Shown in pieces: positions 2,055-22,315 of a stretch of DNA of 22,315 bases. The stretch comes from a virus. The stretch is taken from positions 1 through 22,315 of the IMG/VR virus record IMGVR_UViG_3300025133_000642; one strand, written 5' to 3'. Made by a program: the position numbers and the translations under genes. Numbering within the stretch: the first letter of the stretch is position 1; each line of letters starts with the position of its first letter. The notes beneath the pieces are model-generated. The model had not been told where the DNA came from, ran no database searches, and was given only the letters and a program-made list of their open reading frames with translations.

Positions 2055-5030
2055 CTAAACTGTTCCATCATGTAGTACCTTATAAGTCGTGCCATTGATG
2101 TTTATTTGTACAGATTGTTTACCGCTCCCCGCAGAACCAGAACCAGCTGTTGTACCATCGATGTTTATAACACCATCAGTTAGGATACCCACAGCAGTAC
2201 CTGTAACAGACGATGTATAATTATCCCTTACAACAGTTCCCGTTGCTGAGCTTTGTACATTAATTCCTGATCGATTATAGTCTGAGATTTGATTACTGTC
2301 AATTATATTATTATCACCGTTGGTTCTTATACCATCCCCAGTTAAGCCAGATGCCGATATACAACTCCCAATTATATTCCCTCTTACAATCGAATTATCC
2401 ACATCAGTTCCAGCATTAATACCGACATTAGTCATACCATCCTTTAGTATATTATTTAAAATATACACCTCATATAAGTATGATCCAGAATCATCATTAG
2501 TAAAATTAATACCATCTAACGTAGCTTCTATTGTGTTTGACTGAATGGTGATGTTTTTAGTAGTACTTTCAACTCCAGTCGGATCGTTTATAATTCCTGT
2601 TGTAACATCCGTTATGGCGTTGTTACTGATTAGAAGAGAGGAGTTATTGTCATATAAATGTACACCATAAGCAACCCCCGTAGAAATTGACCCCCTAAAG
2701 ACATTCCCTACTAAAGAACAGTCAGCTGTTTTAGAGAAGCCAAAACACGTAGATGTTGTTGACGCAGTATTAAGATCTGATATAATATTATTTGAGAATA
2801 CATTATACCGCCCCCTTCTTAATTTACCTAGGGGTGACAATCCTCCTTGGCACCGCATTCCTAATATCACTTTCGATCCGTCTGTTGCGGCTAAAAATCC
2901 TGTAGCAATATTACTATCGAAGACGTTATAACTAGCACCTTTATCAGATTCTATTGCTGAATATCCTTTACAATCCTTAATTATATTATTTGAGATATTA
3001 TTATAAATAGTACCCGGACCAGCGATCTCTACATTATTCCAAGAGAAGCCTGACAAAGTATTCCTATCTATATTATTATGAGAACACGTTATTACAAAGG
3101 CATCTTCCTCTATCTCGTAATCCCAGTTCGTAAATAATCGAATACCAAACTTACATTTTCCATCAGGATCCTCTAGAATACAATTTTTAATTGTGTTTCC
3201 TATGGAGCTCACTCCTGCATGATCGTTATCTCCTGCCGATGAGTCCCCAGACTCATACGCATTTAACATGATATGGGCACCAGCCGAATTTGCTCCGCTT
3301 TCTCTACCACAATCTATGATATGTACTGAGTCAATTGTACAATAACTCGAAGCAGATATGTAAATTGCTGAGTGTCCGGCTGCTTGTGTTAGGTTTGTAG
3401 CATTCCCGTCAATCTTCAAAGAAGAGACGCGTACATTAGTTTTATTCTTTATCAACAAAACAGGAGAAACAGCATCGCCAGAGGAGTCTAGGGGTTTTAG
3501 AATAGAGTTGTCACCTTCCCCACTTAAAGACGTACCTGATCCCATCGTTAGGATAGCACTAATTCTATAGGTTCCTTCTGGTATATATACTTTTCCTCCT
3601 TTGTCTAACGCTGCTTGTATAGCTACAGTATCATCTGTAGTTCCATCTCCAGTTGCACCCCAATCCTTTACGTTTACAGTATCTGCGAATCTAGAAGCCA
3701 GTGTACGGGCCGACGTGCTACCTGTAGCTGTTACTGTACCCGTGATACTACCACTGACTGTCAAGTCTCCAATAATTCCGGGGTCTTCGGACAGTGTACT
3801 CTTAGAGATCCCCATGTTCTGAACAGAGATCACGTCTTCATCTAAAGTCGCCCCTAGAATCGTAATCCCAGTTGCGTCTACGGTGAAGTCTGTGAAAGGA
3901 ATCTGAGCCACCCCATTAATAGCTACGTTATAGGAGTTCGTAGTTGTAGATGCCGGGGTGAAGGGTAGCGTATATGTCTGATCAGTACCAGCAGTAATTG
4001 ATGTAATAGTTACTACACCAGCCTGTGGGGTACTAGGCGGTGCGGGATAGACTTCAGCACCGATATTCTGGACAGATATTACGTCCGTATCTACGGTTGT
4101 TCCTATAATATTAATCGTATTATTTGTAGCATGGATTGTAAAATCTGTTGTAGGTTTCAAGAATGTAGTATTATGATGTACCATCCACGTACTCACGTTT
4201 GTGCTTAAGGCTGTGAAAGGCAGTGTGTAATCCTGCCCTGTACCCGCTGTGCCAGAGGTAACTAGGATACTACCGGTTAGAGGTGTCCCTGAAGGTGTAG
4301 TATAGTTCATCGCGTTGTCTACATAATCTTTAGTCACAGCATCTGCTTCATCCACAGGGGTCAACATGTTACCAATCTTCTTAGCTTCCGCATCCCACTT
4401 AGCTAGGGAGTCACTGTAATTAATTACGGCACCTATCATCTGGGCTTCTTTAATCGTACCTGTACTGTCCAGCGTAGCTATACCATTAGGCATACCAAAG
4501 AATGGACTAAGCTTATCGAAGTTATGGAACCTATCATCAATCTCTTGAATGAGATAAAAGAGCTGCTGAATTGACGTGTTTAAATTAACGGACGTAATTC
4601 TACTAGCTGGTTGGAAGGTAACCATCTGATTATTCTTAACTGTAGATCTCACGATATAAACCGTATCCGACGCAGAGATTACTGGTAAGTTCTCAGTCCC
4701 CGCCGTACGTACGAAAGAGTAGTCTGAGCTTGTAGTACTAAACGTAATAAAGTTACCTGAGACGGAATACATGCTACTACCAGATGCCGATGAATTAGGT
4801 AGAGTCCACGCATCCCAAGCCTCTGAGGCTGTTAAGACACCATGTACTAAGCTTGAGTCATCAAACTTCCGCACAATAGTTATTTCTTCTTGGTTTGTTG
4901 TGATGTCAGCATAGTCCCCCGACGATAGGAAGAGACCTTCTCCGCTGATATCAACCGCAGTACCGCCAGCAAAACTGCTGCCTGAGATTGTCGCTAGTAC
5001 TGTAACTCTTGATTGATTATCTACAGCCAT
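2055..5030 (-). CDS. Tail fiber/spike with T7 gp17-like anchor and pectate-lyase-type beta helix
   Basis: The protein has 991 residues. Residues 1-170 look like the T7 gp17 tail-attachment domain, ending in TFQPASRITSVNLNTSIQQL and FYLIQEIDDRF. EADAVTKDYVDN (228-239) is a common fiber linker. Two about 70-residue repeats (255-324, 340-407) each end ISVQN(I/M)G. The junction TATGSTSARTLASRFADTVN then VKDWGATGDGTTDD (433-467) begins a right-handed beta helix with VYIPEGTYRIS and long Asn/Ser/Ile ladders such as NNIIKDCKG and SNNIISDL. Beta-helix spikes often bind or cut host surface polysaccharide; no catalytic residues can be assigned here. AGGAGG lies 5 nt before the ATG. Confidence 0.9.
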   Translation of the reverse strand: MAVDNQSRVTVLATISGSSFAGGTAVDISGEGLFLSSGDYADITTNQEEITIVRKFDDSSLVHGVLTASEAWDAWTLPNSSASGSSMYSVSGNFITFSTTSSDYSFVRTAGTENLPVISASDTVYIVRSTVKNNQMVTFQPASRITSVNLNTSIQQLFYLIQEIDDRFHNFDKLSPFFGMPNGIATLDSTGTIKEAQMIGAVINYSDSLAKWDAEAKKIGNMLTPVDEADAVTKDYVDNAMNYTTPSGTPLTGSILVTSGTAGTGQDYTLPFTALSTNVSTWMVHHNTTFLKPTTDFTIHATNNTINIIGTTVDTDVISVQNIGAEVYPAPPSTPQAGVVTITSITAGTDQTYTLPFTPASTTTNSYNVAINGVAQIPFTDFTVDATGITILGATLDEDVISVQNMGISKSTLSEDPGIIGDLTVSGSITGTVTATGSTSARTLASRFADTVNVKDWGATGDGTTDDTVAIQAALDKGGKVYIPEGTYRISAILTMGSGTSLSGEGDNSILKPLDSSGDAVSPVLLIKNKTNVRVSSLKIDGNATNLTQAAGHSAIYISASSYCTIDSVHIIDCGRESGANSAGAHIMLNAYESGDSSAGDNDHAGVSSIGNTIKNCILEDPDGKCKFGIRLFTNWDYEIEEDAFVITCSHNNIDRNTLSGFSWNNVEIAGPGTIYNNISNNIIKDCKGYSAIESDKGASYNVFDSNIATGFLAATDGSKVILGMRCQGGLSPLGKLRRGRYNVFSNNIISDLNTASTTSTCFGFSKTADCSLVGNVFRGSISTGVAYGVHLYDNNSSLLISNNAITDVTTGIINDPTGVESTTKNITIQSNTIEATLDGINFTNDDSGSYLYEVYILNNILKDGMTNVGINAGTDVDNSIVRGNIIGSCISASGLTGDGIRTNGDNNIIDSNQISDYNRSGINVQSSATGTVVRDNYTSSVTGTAVGILTDGVINIDGTTAGSGSAGSGKQSVQININGTTYKVLHDGTV
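3810..4013 (-). repeat. Fiber linker repeat, copy 2
   Basis: It encodes residues 340-407. It reads TSITAGTDQTYTLPFT, TDFTVDATGITILG, DEDVISVQNMG, aligned with copy 1 over its whole length. It lies immediately upstream of the modular junction to the beta helix. Confidence 0.7.
4059..4268 (-). repeat. Fiber linker repeat, copy 1
   Basis: It encodes residues 255-324 of the fiber. Shared features with copy 2: TSGTAGTGQDYTLPFT at the start, TDFTI in the middle, and DTDVISVQNIG at the end. The pattern is that of a small beta domain carried in tandem between anchor and beta helix. Confidence 0.7.
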
Positions 5031-15567: not shown

Positions 15568-15694
15568 CAAGCTTCTCCTCAATATCATCTATCTTTTTCA
15601 TAAGTCCCCGGATAACTAACAACATTTCAGCGGGGGTTACTGAAGCATTCATCTTAATTTTACGCTCAATATTCTCTAAGCTATGATGTGACAT
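15509..15694 (-). CDS. Small coiled-coil hypothetical protein
   Basis: The protein has 61 residues. It is charged, mostly helical by composition, with a central heptad-like stretch (MLLVIRGLMKKIDDIEEKL) and a basic tail KTRRRSTK. GGAG lies 7 nt before the ATG, inside the end of the reductase gene, and the start overlaps that gene by 14 bp. Its own 3' part overlaps the next small gene by 59 bp in a different frame. No family is recognised. The helical, multimer-prone look would suit a small structural or adaptor protein, but that is a guess. Confidence 0.65.
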   Translation of the reverse strand: MSHHSLENIERKIKMNASVTPAEMLLVIRGLMKKIDDIEEKLDGLEAATKTRRRSTKVSEE

Positions 15695-17606
15695 TTACAT
15701 TCTCCGTTAAGTCTACGACCTCACACGCACCCCCATGGCACGCAAGCTCTTGTGAACCAGTAGTATGATCTTCTGTCTCATACCGAGTTAATTTATCCCA
15801 AGGCAAATCGAGAGGCATCTCTAAGACGAGAGTCTCATACTCGTACTCAGTTAAGGCTTCGAAAGGAGCTTGGTCATATATATTATCATCATAAGGGAGA
15901 AAGGAAACGCCTGAGATATAATCCCAATTCTTCCAGACCCAGTCCCCAATCGCCATGAAGTCTTTATCAGTATATGATACAGTGATACTTGGTTTATGAT
16001 CACACCAATGCTTTTGATACTCAAGCCAGAGATCTAGGTGATCTGCGGGATTAAGTTCTGCTTGGGTGATACAATCCATAGGAGACTTGATAGGGAAAGA
16101 AAAGATTACAGTCTTATCTGTATTCGCTAGGCAGGGCTCGTTGGGGATACCGTTGTCTATCATAAACTGACAGATTGGGTCGGTAATATCAATACGTACA
16201 CGACGTACGTAGTATTGGGAATACCTAGGGTGTAAGCCAGAAGCCGTACCAGCCACAAGACTCGTAGTTCCTGAGGGCTTACAGCATGTCAAGGCTTTCG
16301 ACGGAGGTATCCCGAGCTTCTCTGACCACCGAAGGTTGGTCGCTTCGGCTTCTTCTTTGAGCTTCTTAAGAGTCCAGCGAAGCTTGGGCATACCAAGTTG
16401 ACCAGACATGAGCTTATTATCATAGATACCCGTATAGGATACCCCAAGTAATCTCTCTTCTTCACAGTTCTCCTTCCACTTCCCATCTAGATAGGGGAAA
16501 TTACAGGCTGCGGACTGGACCGTACCCAGTATAGTAGCGATCCTGACCTTATCTAACAAGGTTTCCAGTGTGTCCTCAGACCGTATCACAACTTCCGTTA
16601 AGTTACAGAACTGTTTATCTCGGAGAATAATCTCAGAGCAAGGATTTGTCCCGAAGGAGATACCCTCAATCTCTCGACCAGATTTCTCAGCCAGATTCTT
16701 GAGAGCTTCGCGGTTACATATACCACGCTCTCCAGATTTAGAATTATATAATGAGGTCCACTCATCGAGGAACTCAGACATGGTTGGCTTGGTCTCATAG
16801 ACAGCCGAGTTGTTAGCTAGACGGCGATGCCCTGCGGCTTCCCACCAAGGGCCAGCCTTACAGTTAGCCATCTCTCGGTCACCTAAGTCACTGAGGGAGA
16901 TCAAGGCTGATCGTCTCACAGAGCCTACGATGACGATCTCACCAATCATACAGGCTAGATCGTGGATCTCAATGCTCTTGAGCTTCCGGCCACGGGCTGT
17001 CATGAACTTATTTACAGTGAACCGAAAGAGTTTCTCTAGCGGATCAGGCCCAGAGGCCCTGCCTCCGAAGGTCTTTAGTCGTTCGCCAGCAGGCCTAATC
17101 AAATGTGTCTCCCATGTAGGGTGACGGCCAGCAAACAAGGCAGTTAGTAGGCTATGGTAGGCATTAGCCCAGCCATATCGAGAGTCCTCGACTACAATAA
17201 TATTATCTACACAACGTACAATCTCCTCAGGAACCTCAGGTAATAGGTTTACCTCTTGGGCCTCACAGGAGAAGCCTACGCCGGTACCACAACACAAGAT
17301 CTGAAGGAGATTAGGTAAAGATCTGATCTCATTGATCGCAATATACGAACAGTTGTATAAACAAGTGTCATCTACGTCAGAAGCGGGGCCAGCGGTCATC
17401 AAAGCACGCATGCTTGGGAAGACCTCGCGTTGTTGGGTCGCCAAGCGAGCCCGTTTCCACTCGTGATTGTCCAGAGATATACCAAAACGAGTACTCATGT
17501 AGTCATAGTACCTATCTACACACTCGAACCAGCGTTCGCGTCTCTGTTTTGTTTCATCCCACCTACAATACTTCGATTTCACAATGAATTTTTGAAAGTT
17601 ATCCAT
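15681..17606 (-). CDS. nrdJ: Adenosylcobalamin-dependent (class II) ribonucleoside-triphosphate reductase, monomeric type
   Basis: The protein has 641 residues from ATG at 17606. It reduces ribonucleotides to deoxyribonucleotides using B12. Against Lactobacillus leichmannii RTPR (739 residues), all five key cysteines are present. C86 (NCSYIAI) and C334 (QFCNL) are the redox pair. C323 in GTNPCSEI carries the thiyl radical, with N321 and E325 beside it and the C323-C334 spacing of 11 conserved. C623 and C628 (CHGGACEV) are the C-terminal shuttle. GVRRSA-like SVRRSA and KPSGTTS motifs also match. The stretch between C86 and the FGGRASGP block is clearly shorter than in RTPR, where the allosteric dNTP site lies. 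The start is uncertain: an in-frame TTG at 17627 overlaps the exonuclease, and neither start has a well-spaced SD. Confidence 0.95.
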   Translation of the reverse strand: MDNFQKFIVKSKYCRWDETKQRRERWFECVDRYYDYMSTRFGISLDNHEWKRARLATQQREVFPSMRALMTAGPASDVDDTCLYNCSYIAINEIRSLPNLLQILCCGTGVGFSCEAQEVNLLPEVPEEIVRCVDNIIVVEDSRYGWANAYHSLLTALFAGRHPTWETHLIRPAGERLKTFGGRASGPDPLEKLFRFTVNKFMTARGRKLKSIEIHDLACMIGEIVIVGSVRRSALISLSDLGDREMANCKAGPWWEAAGHRRLANNSAVYETKPTMSEFLDEWTSLYNSKSGERGICNREALKNLAEKSGREIEGISFGTNPCSEIILRDKQFCNLTEVVIRSEDTLETLLDKVRIATILGTVQSAACNFPYLDGKWKENCEEERLLGVSYTGIYDNKLMSGQLGMPKLRWTLKKLKEEAEATNLRWSEKLGIPPSKALTCCKPSGTTSLVAGTASGLHPRYSQYYVRRVRIDITDPICQFMIDNGIPNEPCLANTDKTVIFSFPIKSPMDCITQAELNPADHLDLWLEYQKHWCDHKPSITVSYTDKDFMAIGDWVWKNWDYISGVSFLPYDDNIYDQAPFEALTEYEYETLVLEMPLDLPWDKLTRYETEDHTTGSQELACHGGACEVVDLTENVNVTS

Positions 17607-17616
17607 AATTTGTTCT

Positions 17617-18372
17617 TTATACTCCAACTTTAGGGACCCAAAGGTCGATTTCGTTTGTTATGCTATCATAATCCCCGTTTCGTAGGATCCTAACGCACCT
17701 AGCCATGGCAAGAGCCAAGTCTAAGTCCTCAAGATCGCACGTATGCTTGGGAATATACTTTTCATTTGAATACATGTCTATAATATTTTGAATTATGTCC
17801 TCACCTTCCCACTTTTTGAGGAAAGATCGAGCTCTTTTGTGCCCTATCCGCCAGAGACCGGGGATTGTATCAGTACTATCTCCTGCCATCCATTGAACCA
17901 AGAAGAATTCATCTGCTTCCTCTTCGGTGACGTGTACAGGAGCATCCTCCTTGTCCGGATTGAAGTGCCATCCCGGTACACACCTCAAGTCCTTGTCAAT
18001 TGTCACGGAAACCGCCTCGTAGCCTGAAGCTCGCATCCCAAGGATGTCATCAGCCTCCAGTTTGTCTATAAATTCACAGTTATAGATATCAAACATATAG
18101 TCTCGTACTTCTGAGAGATATTCGGGGGTAGGTTGTCCTTCCCGACTCATCTTATAGCGAGGCCAGACTTCTCTTCGGTAGTTATCTTTGCGGCTACAGC
18201 TGAGACACATCGTGAACTCATCTGTCTCAGCTGGCAACCAGTTCTCTAGGTATTCCTCAATCATCTGGGGAATAAACGCAGGGTCATCAGACTCAGCCCT
18301 AAAGGCTACACGGTAAGCCACAATGTCAGCGTCAATCGCTGCCTTCGTCGGGCACGGGGGGATCTTCTCCAT
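17617..18372 (-). CDS. T7 gp6-like 5'-3' exonuclease (FEN/RNase H family)
   Basis: The protein has 251 residues (T7 gp6 has 300). In T7 this nuclease removes RNA primers and degrades host DNA to nucleotides. The metal-binding acidic residues of the FEN/PIN-like family are in order: AAIDADIVAYR (D14, D16), KLEADDILG (E106, D108, D109), TIDKDLRCVPG (D126, D128), and AGDSTDTIPGLWRIG (164 onward). The last is the helix-hairpin-helix entry that contacts DNA. An in-frame TTG occurs at 18378, but AAGGAG lies 7 nt before the ATG at 18372, which decides the start. The gene overlaps the kinase end by 41 bp and its TAA precedes the likely reductase ATG by 10 nt. Released dNMPs would be substrates for the adjacent kinase. 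Confidence 0.92.
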   Translation of the reverse strand: MEKIPPCPTKAAIDADIVAYRVAFRAESDDPAFIPQMIEEYLENWLPAETDEFTMCLSCSRKDNYRREVWPRYKMSREGQPTPEYLSEVRDYMFDIYNCEFIDKLEADDILGMRASGYEAVSVTIDKDLRCVPGWHFNPDKEDAPVHVTEEEADEFFLVQWMAGDSTDTIPGLWRIGHKRARSFLKKWEGEDIIQNIIDMYSNEKYIPKHTCDLEDLDLALAMARCVRILRNGDYDSITNEIDLWVPKVGV

Positions 18373-19072
18373 CCTCAAACTCCTTCATTAAGATATCAAT
18401 CAGCTCACTGAGCATGTCTTCTAATTCTTCAGTATCATAAGTAACATCTGCGTCATCTAGGTTAGTAGTTAACCCAGCTGCCGATACCCCACACCAAATC
18501 GGAGCCATAGCCCTAGTCTTTACCCTTAGGGTTTCGGCATCCCCGTCATTAAGGAGATGATAATCAAACCACGCACCTTGCTCTTGGTCTCCCTCCTCGA
18601 TATCATTAGCCATAGCCTCAGATTCGTGTTGTCTCCAAGCAGCGTCAGCTTCTGGGAGATCTCTAACCCCCGGAGACATGAAGATTAAGGTTGCGTTGTA
18701 CTTTATTCCCATACCTACTTCGTTATGGTATCGACAATCATCTACAATAACACACCTTTCCCAGAAAGGATTACCTTTCTCCAACTCTTCTTTCTCTTCT
18801 TCTACAATTAGGCTTAAGTCCTTTTCAAAAGCCTCAACCCAATGCGAAGGATTTTCCGTTCGTCTCATAGAACCTAGTTCCTGACAGAAGGATCGGTAAT
18901 CCTCGGGAGTTTTGTCTTTAGTGTACCCTCGTTCCTTTGCTTCCCTCTTGAGAGGATCAGCGAAGGATAATAACTTAGGAACCAATCCTAAGTCGAATGA
19001 TTCTTTAGCTATTAGGTTGGCTAGTGTACTCTTACCCACTCTTGCTGGCCCGGAAATAATTATCAACTCCAT
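18332..19072 (-). CDS. Deoxynucleoside monophosphate kinase-like protein
   Basis: The protein has 246 residues from the chosen ATG. It probably phosphorylates dNMPs, feeding host DNA breakdown products to the polymerase. It has a Walker A loop GPARVGKST (8-16), a Walker B-like strand ending VIVDDCRYHNEV (about 108-119), and RQHESE (147-152), the HxSE-type element of phage T4 gp1-like kinases. The C-terminal roughly 45 residues are strongly acidic and probably extra to the kinase core. An in-frame TTG lies 6 bp upstream at 19078, but AAGGAG sits 7 nt before the ATG at 19072 and almost touches the TTG, so I take the ATG. It overlaps the upstream gene by 41 bp and the exonuclease gene by 41 bp. 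Confidence 0.85.
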   Translation of the reverse strand: MELIIISGPARVGKSTLANLIAKESFDLGLVPKLLSFADPLKREAKERGYTKDKTPEDYRSFCQELGSMRRTENPSHWVEAFEKDLSLIVEEEKEELEKGNPFWERCVIVDDCRYHNEVGMGIKYNATLIFMSPGVRDLPEADAAWRQHESEAMANDIEEGDQEQGAWFDYHLLNDGDAETLRVKTRAMAPIWCGVSAAGLTTNLDDADVTYDTEELEDMLSELIDILMKEFEDGEDPPVPDEGSD

Positions 19073-19556
19073 GCTCAATCTCCTTATAGAGTTTATGTGG
19101 TTCTACGTGCATCCCGACTTGAAACCCAACCATCCTTAATATATAACAAATCATTAACCCACAAGACATAAGCTTGAAGGATAAAGGTACGTATCTAAGT
19201 ATCGTCCACCAGAGGATGTACTCTAAGGTATTACCTATTTTAAAATCATCGGCCTTGATGAAATTATAGAGCTGTCGACTATCGACAACTGTACGACCTA
19301 AGTTGACTCTAGATTCTTTAGAGGTTGGGTGTTTTTTTGTGTATGCTTTACTGAATACCTTGTAAGGTATGAAAGAAAACCTTCGTTTTGCGTTAGATGT
19401 AATTACAAACTCATTCCCATCTTCATAACGAAGTAATAAAGCTGCGTGTGTTATCTCTTCTCTCGAAAATAAATAGAAGAAGCCTAGGAACAATGAATAG
19501 ATGTTCCCTAGCCTCCTATCTACCTTATAGAAGAGTACGATAATCTCCGAGCTCAT
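19032..19556 (-). CDS. Probable permuted papain-like (NlpC/P60-like, YiiX/LRAT type) protein
   Basis: The protein has 174 residues. Two blocks suggest the circularly permuted papain-like fold, in which the catalytic His comes before the Cys. The first is ITHAALLLRYEDGNEFVIT (H37 leading a pair of beta strands). The second is SCGLMICYILRMVG (C132 starting a helix). Residues 17-30 (NIYSLFLGFFYLF) are hydrophobic and precede the His block, so membrane contact is possible. Known relatives are amidases, peptidases or acyltransferases acting on cell-wall or lipid substrates. Which applies here cannot be read from the sequence. The start overlaps the DUF4406 stop (ATGA), and the 3' end overlaps the kinase gene by 41 bp and contains its SD site. 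The assignment rests on the His/Cys order alone; it may be a noncatalytic hypothetical. Confidence 0.5.
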   Translation of the reverse strand: MSSEIIVLFYKVDRRLGNIYSLFLGFFYLFSREEITHAALLLRYEDGNEFVITSNAKRRFSFIPYKVFSKAYTKKHPTSKESRVNLGRTVVDSRQLYNFIKADDFKIGNTLEYILWWTILRYVPLSFKLMSCGLMICYILRMVGFQVGMHVEPHKLYKEIEHGVDNYFRASKSG

Positions 19557-19876
19557 TGATACATTATAGTCATGTTAAGCATGGTAGCCAATGAGTGTTC
19601 AATCCTAGCACCCTCAGACTTCTCCCATCCAGTTAACATATAAATGATATCACATGTTGTGATGTCTGTCAAGTCTCTTGACATGACAATCCTCAGTCCA
19701 TCTGTACTAGATAGCTGGGAATCCGTGAGATTTAAGGCCTTGTCTTCCTTACAAGGATTGATGATAGTATAGATACCTTGAGACCCAAGGGCAGCCTCAG
19801 CTCTGTAGAATTCCTTACGATTAAAGTCCTCATAGCCTCGCATAGGACCTGCAATATATAGATTTAATTGTTCCAT
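19553..19876 (-). CDS. DUF4406 / nucleoside 2-deoxyribosyltransferase-like protein
   Basis: The protein has 107 residues and looks like the DUF4406 group of the nucleoside 2-deoxyribosyltransferase superfamily. It opens with LYIAGPMRGYEDFN (6-19), a nucleotide-binding-like loop. It ends with DLTDITTCDIIYMLTGWEKS followed by EGARIEH. E93 in the latter sits where the catalytic glutamate of the transferases lies, and D76 precedes the strand. Known relatives swap bases on deoxynucleosides or hydrolyse deoxynucleoside monophosphates. Activity in this short phage form is inferred only from the fold. The ATG abuts the polymerase stop and the gene ends in an ATGA overlap with the next gene, so all three are probably co-translated. 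A role in nucleotide salvage fits the nearby kinase and ribonucleotide reductase. Confidence 0.8.
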   Translation of the reverse strand: MEQLNLYIAGPMRGYEDFNRKEFYRAEAALGSQGIYTIINPCKEDKALNLTDSQLSSTDGLRIVMSRDLTDITTCDIIYMLTGWEKSEGARIEHSLATMLNMTIMYQ

Positions 19877-21568
19877 TCAGTGGCACTCCGACCAGTTCTT
19901 ACCTACTCTAAATTCTCCGTCCATCTTAATACAACAATTAAGAATCTTACCTGCTTGGGTAATAGCCTGACACCCTAGTGTACCTACGATATCAGAGATG
20001 ACGGGATCACACTCCAACTGCCACTCATCATGAACAGTTGCCATAAAATTCACTTGACCCTTAAAGGGCTTCAAACTCCGCGACAATAATACCTGAGCTA
20101 CCTTCATAAGTATAGCTCCATCGCCTTGTAGTTGTACGTTCAAAGATTTATGAGCAGCTCGGCAAGGAACCTCTCGATGATCTAGCAACGTAATGGTCCC
20201 TTTCTTCTGCACTTGCCACTCAACATTAGCTAAGAGCTGCTTAAGGGCTGGCATTGAATCCAAGTATTGTTTCTTGATCTCCTTACCAACCTTCGGTCCC
20301 TTCTTAACAATCTGCCCTATCTTCAAATCACCAGCACCGTAGATCAAAGCGTAGAAGAAAGTCTTTGCGGATTCTCTATCTGGTAGACCAGCTGCCTTCT
20401 GATTCACGGTGTGAATATCATCATTTAGTACCTGCTGAGCGAAAGCTCCCTTGTCCCATCTAGCCATACGACTAGCGAGTAACCGAGCTTCTAGACCAGA
20501 GGCATCAATACCTACCTGTACCCAGTCCTTACCCGGTACAAACAAAGATCGTGCTCTACTATCTCCAGATACCTGTTGTAGGTTAGGCTGGGAAGCAGTC
20601 ATACGACCAGTTACAGTGCCTTGGGTATTTACCCCTCCGTGGATGCGACCGTCTCTAGATACGTTAGCTCTGAGAATCCAATCTTCCACCTGACTCAGCA
20701 GCTTTGTGATAGCAAAGTATCTTACTAATTCCTTTGCCTCAGAGTAAGGTAGCTTCTTGAGGACAGCCTCATCTACTTTAGGATTACCCTTCTCTGTCTT
20801 AGGCGGTTTCCAGTTATACTTGGTAGCCAACCTTTCCGCTATCTGCTTCCGAGAACCGGGGTTAAACACAGTGACCTTATCCTTTAACCTCTTACCGGTC
20901 TTATCAGAGTATCTTTCCTCAGTAATAGGTAAGAATATCTGACCAAGATCGTCCTCTATACCTACCTTTTCCATGAGAAGGTCAGCTTCGAGGGACTCAG
21001 CGGCCTTGAGATTAAACCCAAAGCCATTAACGATTTGATCCGAAACAATCCGTGCGACTTTATGCTCCAACTTTACCGACTTCGAATACTGTTTTACATA
21101 AGCCTGCTCTGCATGGAATATCTTAGCTGTTATAGCTACGTCCTGCTTACAGTAACGAACCATCTCTTCTGTCAGCTGAGAGAAATCGTGGAATTCCTGC
21201 TTAGGAAAATCGAAATACTCTCCCCAAGACTTTAGACTATTAGATCCCATCGGGTGGTTCTGTCTGTCTGGATACATCAACCGAGAAACAATCAATGTAT
21301 CAAAGAATTTAACATCAATCCGACCATAGTATCTCTCAAGCATTGGGATATCATACATGATGATATTATGTCCGATCAATAAGTCAGCAGTCTTCAGGAA
21401 AGCAACGCCTTCCATCATCTCTCCTCGTAGGAATTCCCAAGTTTCGCCTGTGTCTACGTCTTCCACACACATGCAGAAGATATCATCGCCCTCTGGGATA
21501 GGGCAACCTTTCTTATTAATGACAACTTCGCTCAGGCCGTTGGCCTCGATGTCGAAAGCAAGTCTCAT
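19877..21568 (-). CDS. T7-like family A DNA polymerase with 3'-5' exonuclease domain
   Basis: The protein has 563 residues (T7 gp5 has 704) and is the phage replicase. The proofreading domain carries D6 and E8 in FDIEANGL, D73 in MYDIPML, and D143 in YCKQDVAIT. The polymerase domain has motif A IDASGLEARLL (D355), DIHT (H386), the O-helix RESAKTFFYALIYGAGD (R398, K402, Y406, Y410), and motif C VHDE (H513, D514). The C-terminus GKNWSECH closely matches the end of T7 gp5. Tyr406 sits at the E. coli Pol I position 762, as in T7. The thumb between about residues 209 and 233 is very short, so the T7 thioredoxin-binding insertion is essentially missing. AAGGA lies 8 nt before the ATG. The stop directly abuts the next start (TGAATG). 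Confidence 0.97.
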   Translation of the reverse strand: MRLAFDIEANGLSEVVINKKGCPIPEGDDIFCMCVEDVDTGETWEFLRGEMMEGVAFLKTADLLIGHNIIMYDIPMLERYYGRIDVKFFDTLIVSRLMYPDRQNHPMGSNSLKSWGEYFDFPKQEFHDFSQLTEEMVRYCKQDVAITAKIFHAEQAYVKQYSKSVKLEHKVARIVSDQIVNGFGFNLKAAESLEADLLMEKVGIEDDLGQIFLPITEERYSDKTGKRLKDKVTVFNPGSRKQIAERLATKYNWKPPKTEKGNPKVDEAVLKKLPYSEAKELVRYFAITKLLSQVEDWILRANVSRDGRIHGGVNTQGTVTGRMTASQPNLQQVSGDSRARSLFVPGKDWVQVGIDASGLEARLLASRMARWDKGAFAQQVLNDDIHTVNQKAAGLPDRESAKTFFYALIYGAGDLKIGQIVKKGPKVGKEIKKQYLDSMPALKQLLANVEWQVQKKGTITLLDHREVPCRAAHKSLNVQLQGDGAILMKVAQVLLSRSLKPFKGQVNFMATVHDEWQLECDPVISDIVGTLGCQAITQAGKILNCCIKMDGEFRVGKNWSECH

Positions 21569-21571
21569 TGT

Positions 21572-22225
21572 TTAAATCCTTATATTATTTACTGCTTTTT
21601 CTGTAGATCCCGTAAGACCTAGGAATTTATTAATTGTTTTGATTGTTATCTCAGGAGTGTCTAGCATATCCTCAAAGAATATTTTAAAAGTCCTGACACG
21701 AGAGTCTCTCCACCACCTCGCTATTGAAGCACTACCAAAGTTAACTATATTCTTGAACTGCTGGAGATCTAAGTGCCTATACAGTTCGAGAGACCTCGCA
21801 CGTTGGCTTAGGGGGTCCAGGCGGCCTGCTTTTATTTCTTTATCCATAACTTCTACATCAAGTATAGCAAGCTTCATAAAGCTTAGGGCCTGAGCGTCTC
21901 TGTCCCGTCGATCACAAAGTATAACTCTAGAAGTAAGTCCTTCTGGGATTAACATAGGACCTATAGGTCCTAGTACCTTTACGCCCTTGCCTTGGTTTGC
22001 GTCAGTAAAATAGCTTAGCTGTTTCTCAAAAGGTATATCATAATAACCTTGGGGATTGTGTTTGGAGATCCTTTCTTGAAGATCCTCTGGCACGTCTTGG
22101 CTGTGGAGATAGCTATTCCCTTGGAAGTCGTAGTCATCTACGCCAACCAAGGGAACCCCGAGATGCTGGATGGTCTGCATCATCAGGCTTGAGCCACTCC
22201 TAGGCATACCGGATACTACAATCAT
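21572..22225 (-). CDS. Sulfotransferase-like P-loop protein
   Basis: The protein has 217 residues and resembles PAPS-dependent sulfotransferases, which move a sulfuryl group from PAPS to a hydroxyl or amino acceptor. The N-terminal strand is followed by SGMPRSGSS (residues 5-13), matching the 5'-phosphosulfate-binding loop. Residues 101-115 (VILCDRRDRDAQALS) match the 3'-phosphate-binding RxxRD...S element: R106, R109, D110 and S115, with the serine one position later than usual. A C-terminal INKFLGL segment is also typical of the family. The start is an ATG overlapping the upstream stop as ATGA; no strong Shine-Dalgarno (SD) site is seen, so translation is probably coupled. It lies just upstream of the DNA polymerase, an unusual partner for replication genes. 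The acceptor is unknown. It could also be a related P-loop protein without sulfotransferase activity. Confidence 0.72.
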   Translation of the reverse strand: MIVVSGMPRSGSSLMMQTIQHLGVPLVGVDDYDFQGNSYLHSQDVPEDLQERISKHNPQGYYDIPFEKQLSYFTDANQGKGVKVLGPIGPMLIPEGLTSRVILCDRRDRDAQALSFMKLAILDVEVMDKEIKAGRLDPLSQRARSLELYRHLDLQQFKNIVNFGSASIARWWRDSRVRTFKIFFEDMLDTPEITIKTINKFLGLTGSTEKAVNNIRI

Positions 22226-22314
22226 GTGTCTGGGTCTACAATAGTCTTACCTTCGTCAGTTAACGCGAAGTCAACCTCTCGTAAGCGACCATTGTCTCGA
22301 TCAAACAACAAGCA
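22222..22314 (-). CDS. C-terminal end of an unidentified phage protein (partial, runs off the right edge)
   Basis: An open frame enters from the right edge and ends in TGA after 30 visible codons. The residues read roughly CLLFDRDNGRLREVDFALTD followed by EGKTIVDPDT. The stop overlaps the start of the sulfotransferase-like gene as ATGA, the same tight junction used elsewhere on this strand, which supports it being a real gene end. The piece is polar and acidic with no recognisable motif. I cannot name the protein. Confidence 0.6.
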   Translation of the reverse strand, partial: CLLFDRDNGRLREVDFALTDEGKTIVDPDT

Positions 22315-22315
22315 T

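Follow-up and report, generated by a model that had tools for sequence, protein, structure and literature searches.

A predicted divergent sulfotransferase encoded between the helicase and polymerase genes of an uncultured T7-like phage and its relatives

The sulfotransferase gene and its operon

The window, i.e. the whole 22,315-nucleotide stretch of viral DNA analysed here (IMG/VR record IMGVR_UViG_3300025133_000642), comes from an uncultured T7-like phage. Its DNA polymerase is at best ~40% identical to those of LUZ100 and the pelagiphages, which places the source phage outside every lineage in the phage collection. The genes that concern us lie near its end, all on the minus strand:

15681..19876, minus: downstream nucleotide-metabolism genes, comprising DUF4406, an unknown 174-aa protein, dNMP kinase, 5'-3' exonuclease and ribonucleotide reductase
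19877..21568, minus: family A DNA polymerase, T7 gp5-like, 563 aa (phrog_17, E=8.9e-121; PF00476, E=1.3e-43)
21572..22225, minus: predicted sulfotransferase, 217 aa, ATG start (PF13469 match, fold, 27 distinct same-slot homologues)
22222..22225, minus: ATGA, the 4-bp overlap of the sulfotransferase start with the primase-helicase stop
22222..22315, minus: C-terminal end of a T7 gp4-like primase-helicase, truncated where the window stops

The primase-helicase, inside which the window ends, is complete in the related contigs L002 (2823-4565) and L003 (5287-7029). On the other side, the polymerase starts just 3 bp downstream of the sulfotransferase stop. The first-pass annotation had described a 217-codon reading frame at 21572-22225 embedded in a replication block; that frame is indeed present on the minus strand, and the block is bounded by the primase-helicase and the family A DNA polymerase. 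Since the frame and its motifs are kept in relatives at 96, 59, 39, 33 and 28% identity, and dN/dS between close copies is ~0.24, it is more than a chance open reading frame.

Two further features of the neighborhood deserve mention. The 174-aa frame in the downstream genes (window 19032-19556, minus strand) has no Pfam or PHROG match, keeps its position in many relatives and diverges fast, with 34% identity to its counterpart in L096 against 81% for the polymerase. Further upstream, three tRNA genes (Arg-tct, Leu-taa, Met-cat) are found between a rusA-like gene and the helicase (L002:1254-1574, L003:3579-4057); L003 also has a 188-aa frame (3022-3588, plus strand), lacking at the corresponding place in the near-identical L002, whose product is similar to the C-terminal region of citrate synthase (PF00285, E 0.0022, under the cut-off).

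Fold and active site of the predicted enzyme

Profile and structure comparisons agree in predicting that the 217-aa protein is a divergent PAPS-type sulfotransferase. It matches the Pfam family Sulfotransfer_3 (PF13469) at E=5.2e-6 with 27.3 bits, marginally above the cut-off of 27, while its scores against the cytosolic SULT family (PF00685, 19.0 bits) and Stf0 (PF09037, 15.5 bits, a weak match at residues 101-210) fall below the respective cut-offs of 22. At E<=1 Sulfotransfer_3 is recovered for every one of the 27 aligned members, yet in genome searches no more than 2 of 15 related contigs exceed its cut-off; the window protein matches none of the PHROG phage families at E<=10. In a PDB profile search with the 27-sequence alignment, sulfotransferases dominate the match list, with SULT1B1 recovered at E 6.1e-6. 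The AlphaFold2 model of the protein (pLDDT 89.2, pTM 0.87) was compared with the PDB using Foldseek: ranks 1-49 are all of the sulfotransferase fold, most of them solved with PAP bound (best E 9.3e-5), and the first entry outside this fold, another P-loop protein, appears at rank 50. The listed matches include retinol dehydratase, solved with PAP, which is of the same fold. TM-scores against the solved enzymes are ~0.5, pointing to a remote member of the sulfotransferase fold. A P-loop kinase, the identity that the first-pass annotation had named as fatal to its proposal, is ruled out by these ranks, and the proposal of a sulfotransferase is borne out.

Conservation across the 27 distinct same-slot homologues delineates a candidate active site. 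The residues G6, R9, G11, S13, N57, P58, G60, K83, C104, R106, D186 and N214 are invariant in all 27, and the principal elements are as follows:

22184..22210, minus: 5'-phosphosulfate-binding loop, residues 6-14 (GMPRSGSSL), in which L14 is also invariant (27/27)
22037..22057, minus: NPxGY[YWF][DE] motif, residues 57-63, candidate acceptor or catalytic-base region
21977..21979, minus: K83, candidate catalytic Lys (27/27), in a core strand (81-85) of the model
21881..21910, minus: predicted 3'-phosphate-binding motif, R106 to S115 (R-x8-S), from the HMM alignment to 1ls6

The motif SGMPRSGSS noted in the first pass occupies residues 5-13, and its loop follows the G-x-[P/G]-R-x-G-[ST]-S pattern of Sulfotransfer_3, with G6, R9, G11 and S13 present in 27/27. 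The model places it after a strand (2-6) and leading into a helix (12-21). An acid is retained at residue 63 in 26 of the 27 homologues.

The second PAPS motif had been read as R106/R109/D110/S115. All four residues are at these positions, but they are not equally conserved: R106 is found in 27/27 and S115 in 22/27, the exceptions being one subclade of five (L107, L108, L115, L117, L120) with Gly or Lys instead, whereas R109 (6/27) and D110 (7/27) vary and thus do not belong to the conserved motif. In SULTs the 3'-phosphate is bound by R130 and S138. In the HMM alignment to SULT1A1 (1ls6), R106 falls opposite R130 and S115 opposite S138, with a single phage residue lacking a partner just after the Arg. 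Both the Arg and the Ser expected of Sulfotransfer_3 are therefore present with one extra residue between them, making the span one residue longer than the R-x7-S of SULT1A1. Wherever a slot homologue retains the Ser, the spacing is R-x8-S rather than that of PF00685; the far homologues L138 and L140 have the usual R-x7-S. We also considered that the shift might be an artefact of anchoring on R106, as R107-x7-S115 would fit the SULT spacing. We rejected this reading: position 107 may be R, K, Y, E, G or S, whereas R106 never changes, and the SULT1A1 profile alignment itself pairs R106 with R130. Thus, judged from these alignments, the one-residue shift spotted in the first pass is a real insertion after R106, and its retention through the whole phage clade favors the divergent subgroup suggested there.

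It is most improbable that the protein is merely a P-loop nucleotide-binding protein or a decayed enzyme. The marginal Pfam score and the loss of S115 in five homologues would fit such a protein, but R9, K83, R106 and other sites are invariant over ~70% sequence divergence, dN/dS is well below 1, and the fold matches are to sulfotransferases and not to kinases.

Among characterized families, the cytosolic SULTs (PF00685; SULT1A1, SULT1B1, SULT1E1) provide the best profile and fold matches, and their 3'-phosphate Arg and Ser align with those of the phage protein. The latter differs in being ~80 residues shorter, in carrying an Arg where the 5' loop of SULTs has Lys and R-x8-S instead of R-x7-S, and in apparently having replaced the SULT catalytic His. 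The Stf0/LPS-type bacterial sulfotransferases (PF09037; 1tex, NodH 9vki) show the weak profile match mentioned above and a fold match to 1tex. Short Sulfotransfer_3 proteins from cells of Verrucomicrobiota/Planctomycetota (L143/L317, L142) and a planctomycete prophage-like copy (L144) share a GRxGxSLMMQTL or PRSGTSLMMQTL loop as well as the NPxGxxE and GKAVK motifs with the window protein; they differ in that the identity (32-36%) is restricted to the N-terminal half and in their genome context. A cellular relative on a Verrucomicrobia contig lies above the Sulfotransfer_3 cut-off (44.5 bits).

Phage members of Sulfotransfer_3 have been reported from OM43 phage contigs and the Synechococcus phage S-SRM01, where their role is unclear, and sulfotransferase genes of phages recur in lists of auxiliary metabolic genes to which no role has been assigned (e.g. 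PMC10580990). The podovirus AP-20-A has a sulfotransferase in its replication region, mentioned without a function (PMC13299392). Our literature search for a demonstrated function of a phage sulfotransferase found no case. The window protein resembles the reported phage members in its PAPS-binding loop and C-terminal region match, its phage-borne nature and its unclear function; it differs in being locked into the gp4-gp5 slot of a single T7-like clade and in the extra residue of its R...S motif. It is not close to them, as tblastn queries with three clade members and one outsider gave no match at E 0.01 among 50,697 phage records; no cultured phage of that collection carries the gene. The window gene hence adds one divergent sulfotransferase to those already reported from phages. 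A scan of bacterial genomes with the single window protein likewise gave no match.

Distribution, selection and alternative contents of the slot

Viral contigs were searched with the sulfotransferase, polymerase and helicase, yielding 179 distinct helicase-polymerase junctions. The sulfotransferase is present in 31 of these (27 distinct proteins), a count that is not a prevalence as part of the set was found via the sulfotransferase itself. All 31 belong to phages with a polymerase at least 57% identical to that of the window (that of L118 reads 50% only because it is cut). The gene is missing from 20 junctions with a polymerase at >=56% and occurs in none of the 128 others. Among these junctions, the gene-neighborhood survey of T7-like phages proposed in the first pass thus confines it to one clade, all of whose homologues lie in this one slot. 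Mapped onto the polymerase tree, its presence and absence can be explained with ~4 changes, where shuffled labels require 13.5; the main subclades of the polymerase tree reappear in that of the sulfotransferase. The simplest reading of these trees, which cannot separate gain from loss, would be one old acquisition followed by several losses. Sporadic acquisition as cargo was rejected as the main picture, given the single clade-wide slot, the matching subclades and the few changes. Its absence from several sister lineages indicates that the gene is dispensable there. The 27 distinct versions in one operon position, together with the sister lineages lacking the gene, constitute natural presence/absence pairs; this clade set and the clear candidate catalytic residues make the question of what phages sulfate a testable one.

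In close pairs the sulfotransferase dN/dS is mostly 0.16-0.24 (0.07 in one saturated pair), while the helicase and polymerase stand at ~0.03-0.10, such that in most close pairs the former is ~2-6 times that of its operon neighbors. The changes are concentrated at residues 30-56 and in the C-terminal half. These ratios indicate a protein kept functional by purifying selection and yet changing faster than those encoded by the flanking genes; such fast evolution may fit a host-specific acceptor and an arms race alike.

Outside the clade, homologues occur in other settings: on four phage contigs (L138-L141) immediately behind large genes of tail or virion type, and on a planctomycete chromosome (L144) among tail-type genes in an apparent prophage.

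The helicase-polymerase slot itself is filled differently in several related phages. In L182, L183 and L258 it holds ~2.1 kb encoding adenylosuccinate synthetase and IMPDH/GMP reductase. The assignment is from Pfam on the L182 copies (PF00709, E 1.2e-75; PF00478, E 1.3e-68), from the reading frames of L182 and L258, and for L183 from equal slot length; the WGDEGKGK motif is kept in the purine enzyme. A more distant phage has a C5-cytosine DNA methylase in the slot (L034:4941-5873, plus strand; PF00145, E 6e-53). In two sulfotransferase-less clade members the slot holds frames (L029:5439-6002 and one in L246) that appear ParB-like by eye, neither with a Pfam match. Elsewhere in the clade, a 4,728-codon frame (G004 10372-24558, loci L296/L297), probably a giant virion protein, has relatives in all four other long contigs compared (G006, G008, G010, G011).

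Cofactor supply, mechanism and candidate acceptors

Searches for APS kinase in 15 related contigs gave none over cut-off, with two weak matches of which at least one falls on the dNMP kinase. For PAPS reductase, 20 related contigs gave none; positive controls were run for both, and most of the contigs are incomplete fragments, so that absence is not proof. The host sulfate-assimilation pathway is therefore the likely source of PAPS. Linked PAPS/PAP recycling was discarded as a candidate: neither an APS kinase nor a PAPS reductase was found in those contigs, and the conserved metallophosphoesterase occurs with or without the sulfotransferase.

Taking class, expression and cofactor jointly, we consider it highly probable (roughly 0.85) that the gene specifies a compact PAPS-dependent sulfotransferase that is made together with the replication proteins and fed with PAPS by the host. 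The enzyme would be produced cytoplasmically during infection, along with the phage replication proteins, and would draw PAPS from the host's own sulfate assimilation. By analogy with known sulfotransferases, R9 and K83 are predicted to stabilize the transition state of sulfuryl transfer, with D/E63 as a possible base. The acceptor may differ between hosts and might be a host cytoplasmic molecule. For its identity we infer a ranking that places a surface-glycan precursor ahead of counter-defence, and the latter ahead of nucleotide or DNA modification. The first choice, a host surface-glycan or lipopolysaccharide precursor, is a tentative one, held at clearly less than even odds; the altered surface could then act against rival phages, or the physiology of the host could be changed.

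The pace of evolution bears on a role in counter-defence, whereby sulfation would disarm a component of host defence, for instance a defence protein or a nucleotide second messenger, during replication. This appears unlikely. A dN/dS of ~2-6 times that of the operon neighbors in most close pairs, the sporadic loss of the gene, the altered 3'-phosphate site of one subclade and production alongside replication rather than virion proteins would fit such a role; but a host-specific glycan acceptor is also compatible with the fast evolution, PADLOC gave no match, and the search for a known counter-defence enzyme of this type found none.

The operon position is relevant to the proposal that a sulfated modified nucleotide or DNA lets the phage DNA escape nucleases, which we regard as quite unlikely. 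The gene does lie between helicase and polymerase, upstream of a dNMP kinase and a deoxyribosyltransferase-like DUF4406 gene, and in related phages its slot holds the purine enzymes (L182, L183, L258) or the C5-cytosine methylase (L034) described above. Against this, the window has no visible base-hypermodification pathway and the downstream nucleotide genes are present also where the sulfotransferase is absent. We know of no sulfated DNA base. Similarly doubtful is the notion of a nucleotide-based target that is made or met at the replication fork, whether DNA of the phage, a modified dNTP or a nucleotide signal of host immunity; if true, it would amount to phage counter-defence by sulfation, in a slot that elsewhere holds purine-metabolism or DNA-methylation cargo.

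The genomic contexts also speak to one further candidate target within the phage's own virion, namely a tail protein or an internal one. The homologues that follow tail- or virion-type genes in L138-L141 and that lie among tail-type genes in L144 would suit sulfation of such a protein. We nevertheless consider it very unlikely, as the gene in the window's clade is never in a virion module but is fixed in the replication operon, and the virion-module homologues are very divergent, at 27-31% identity.
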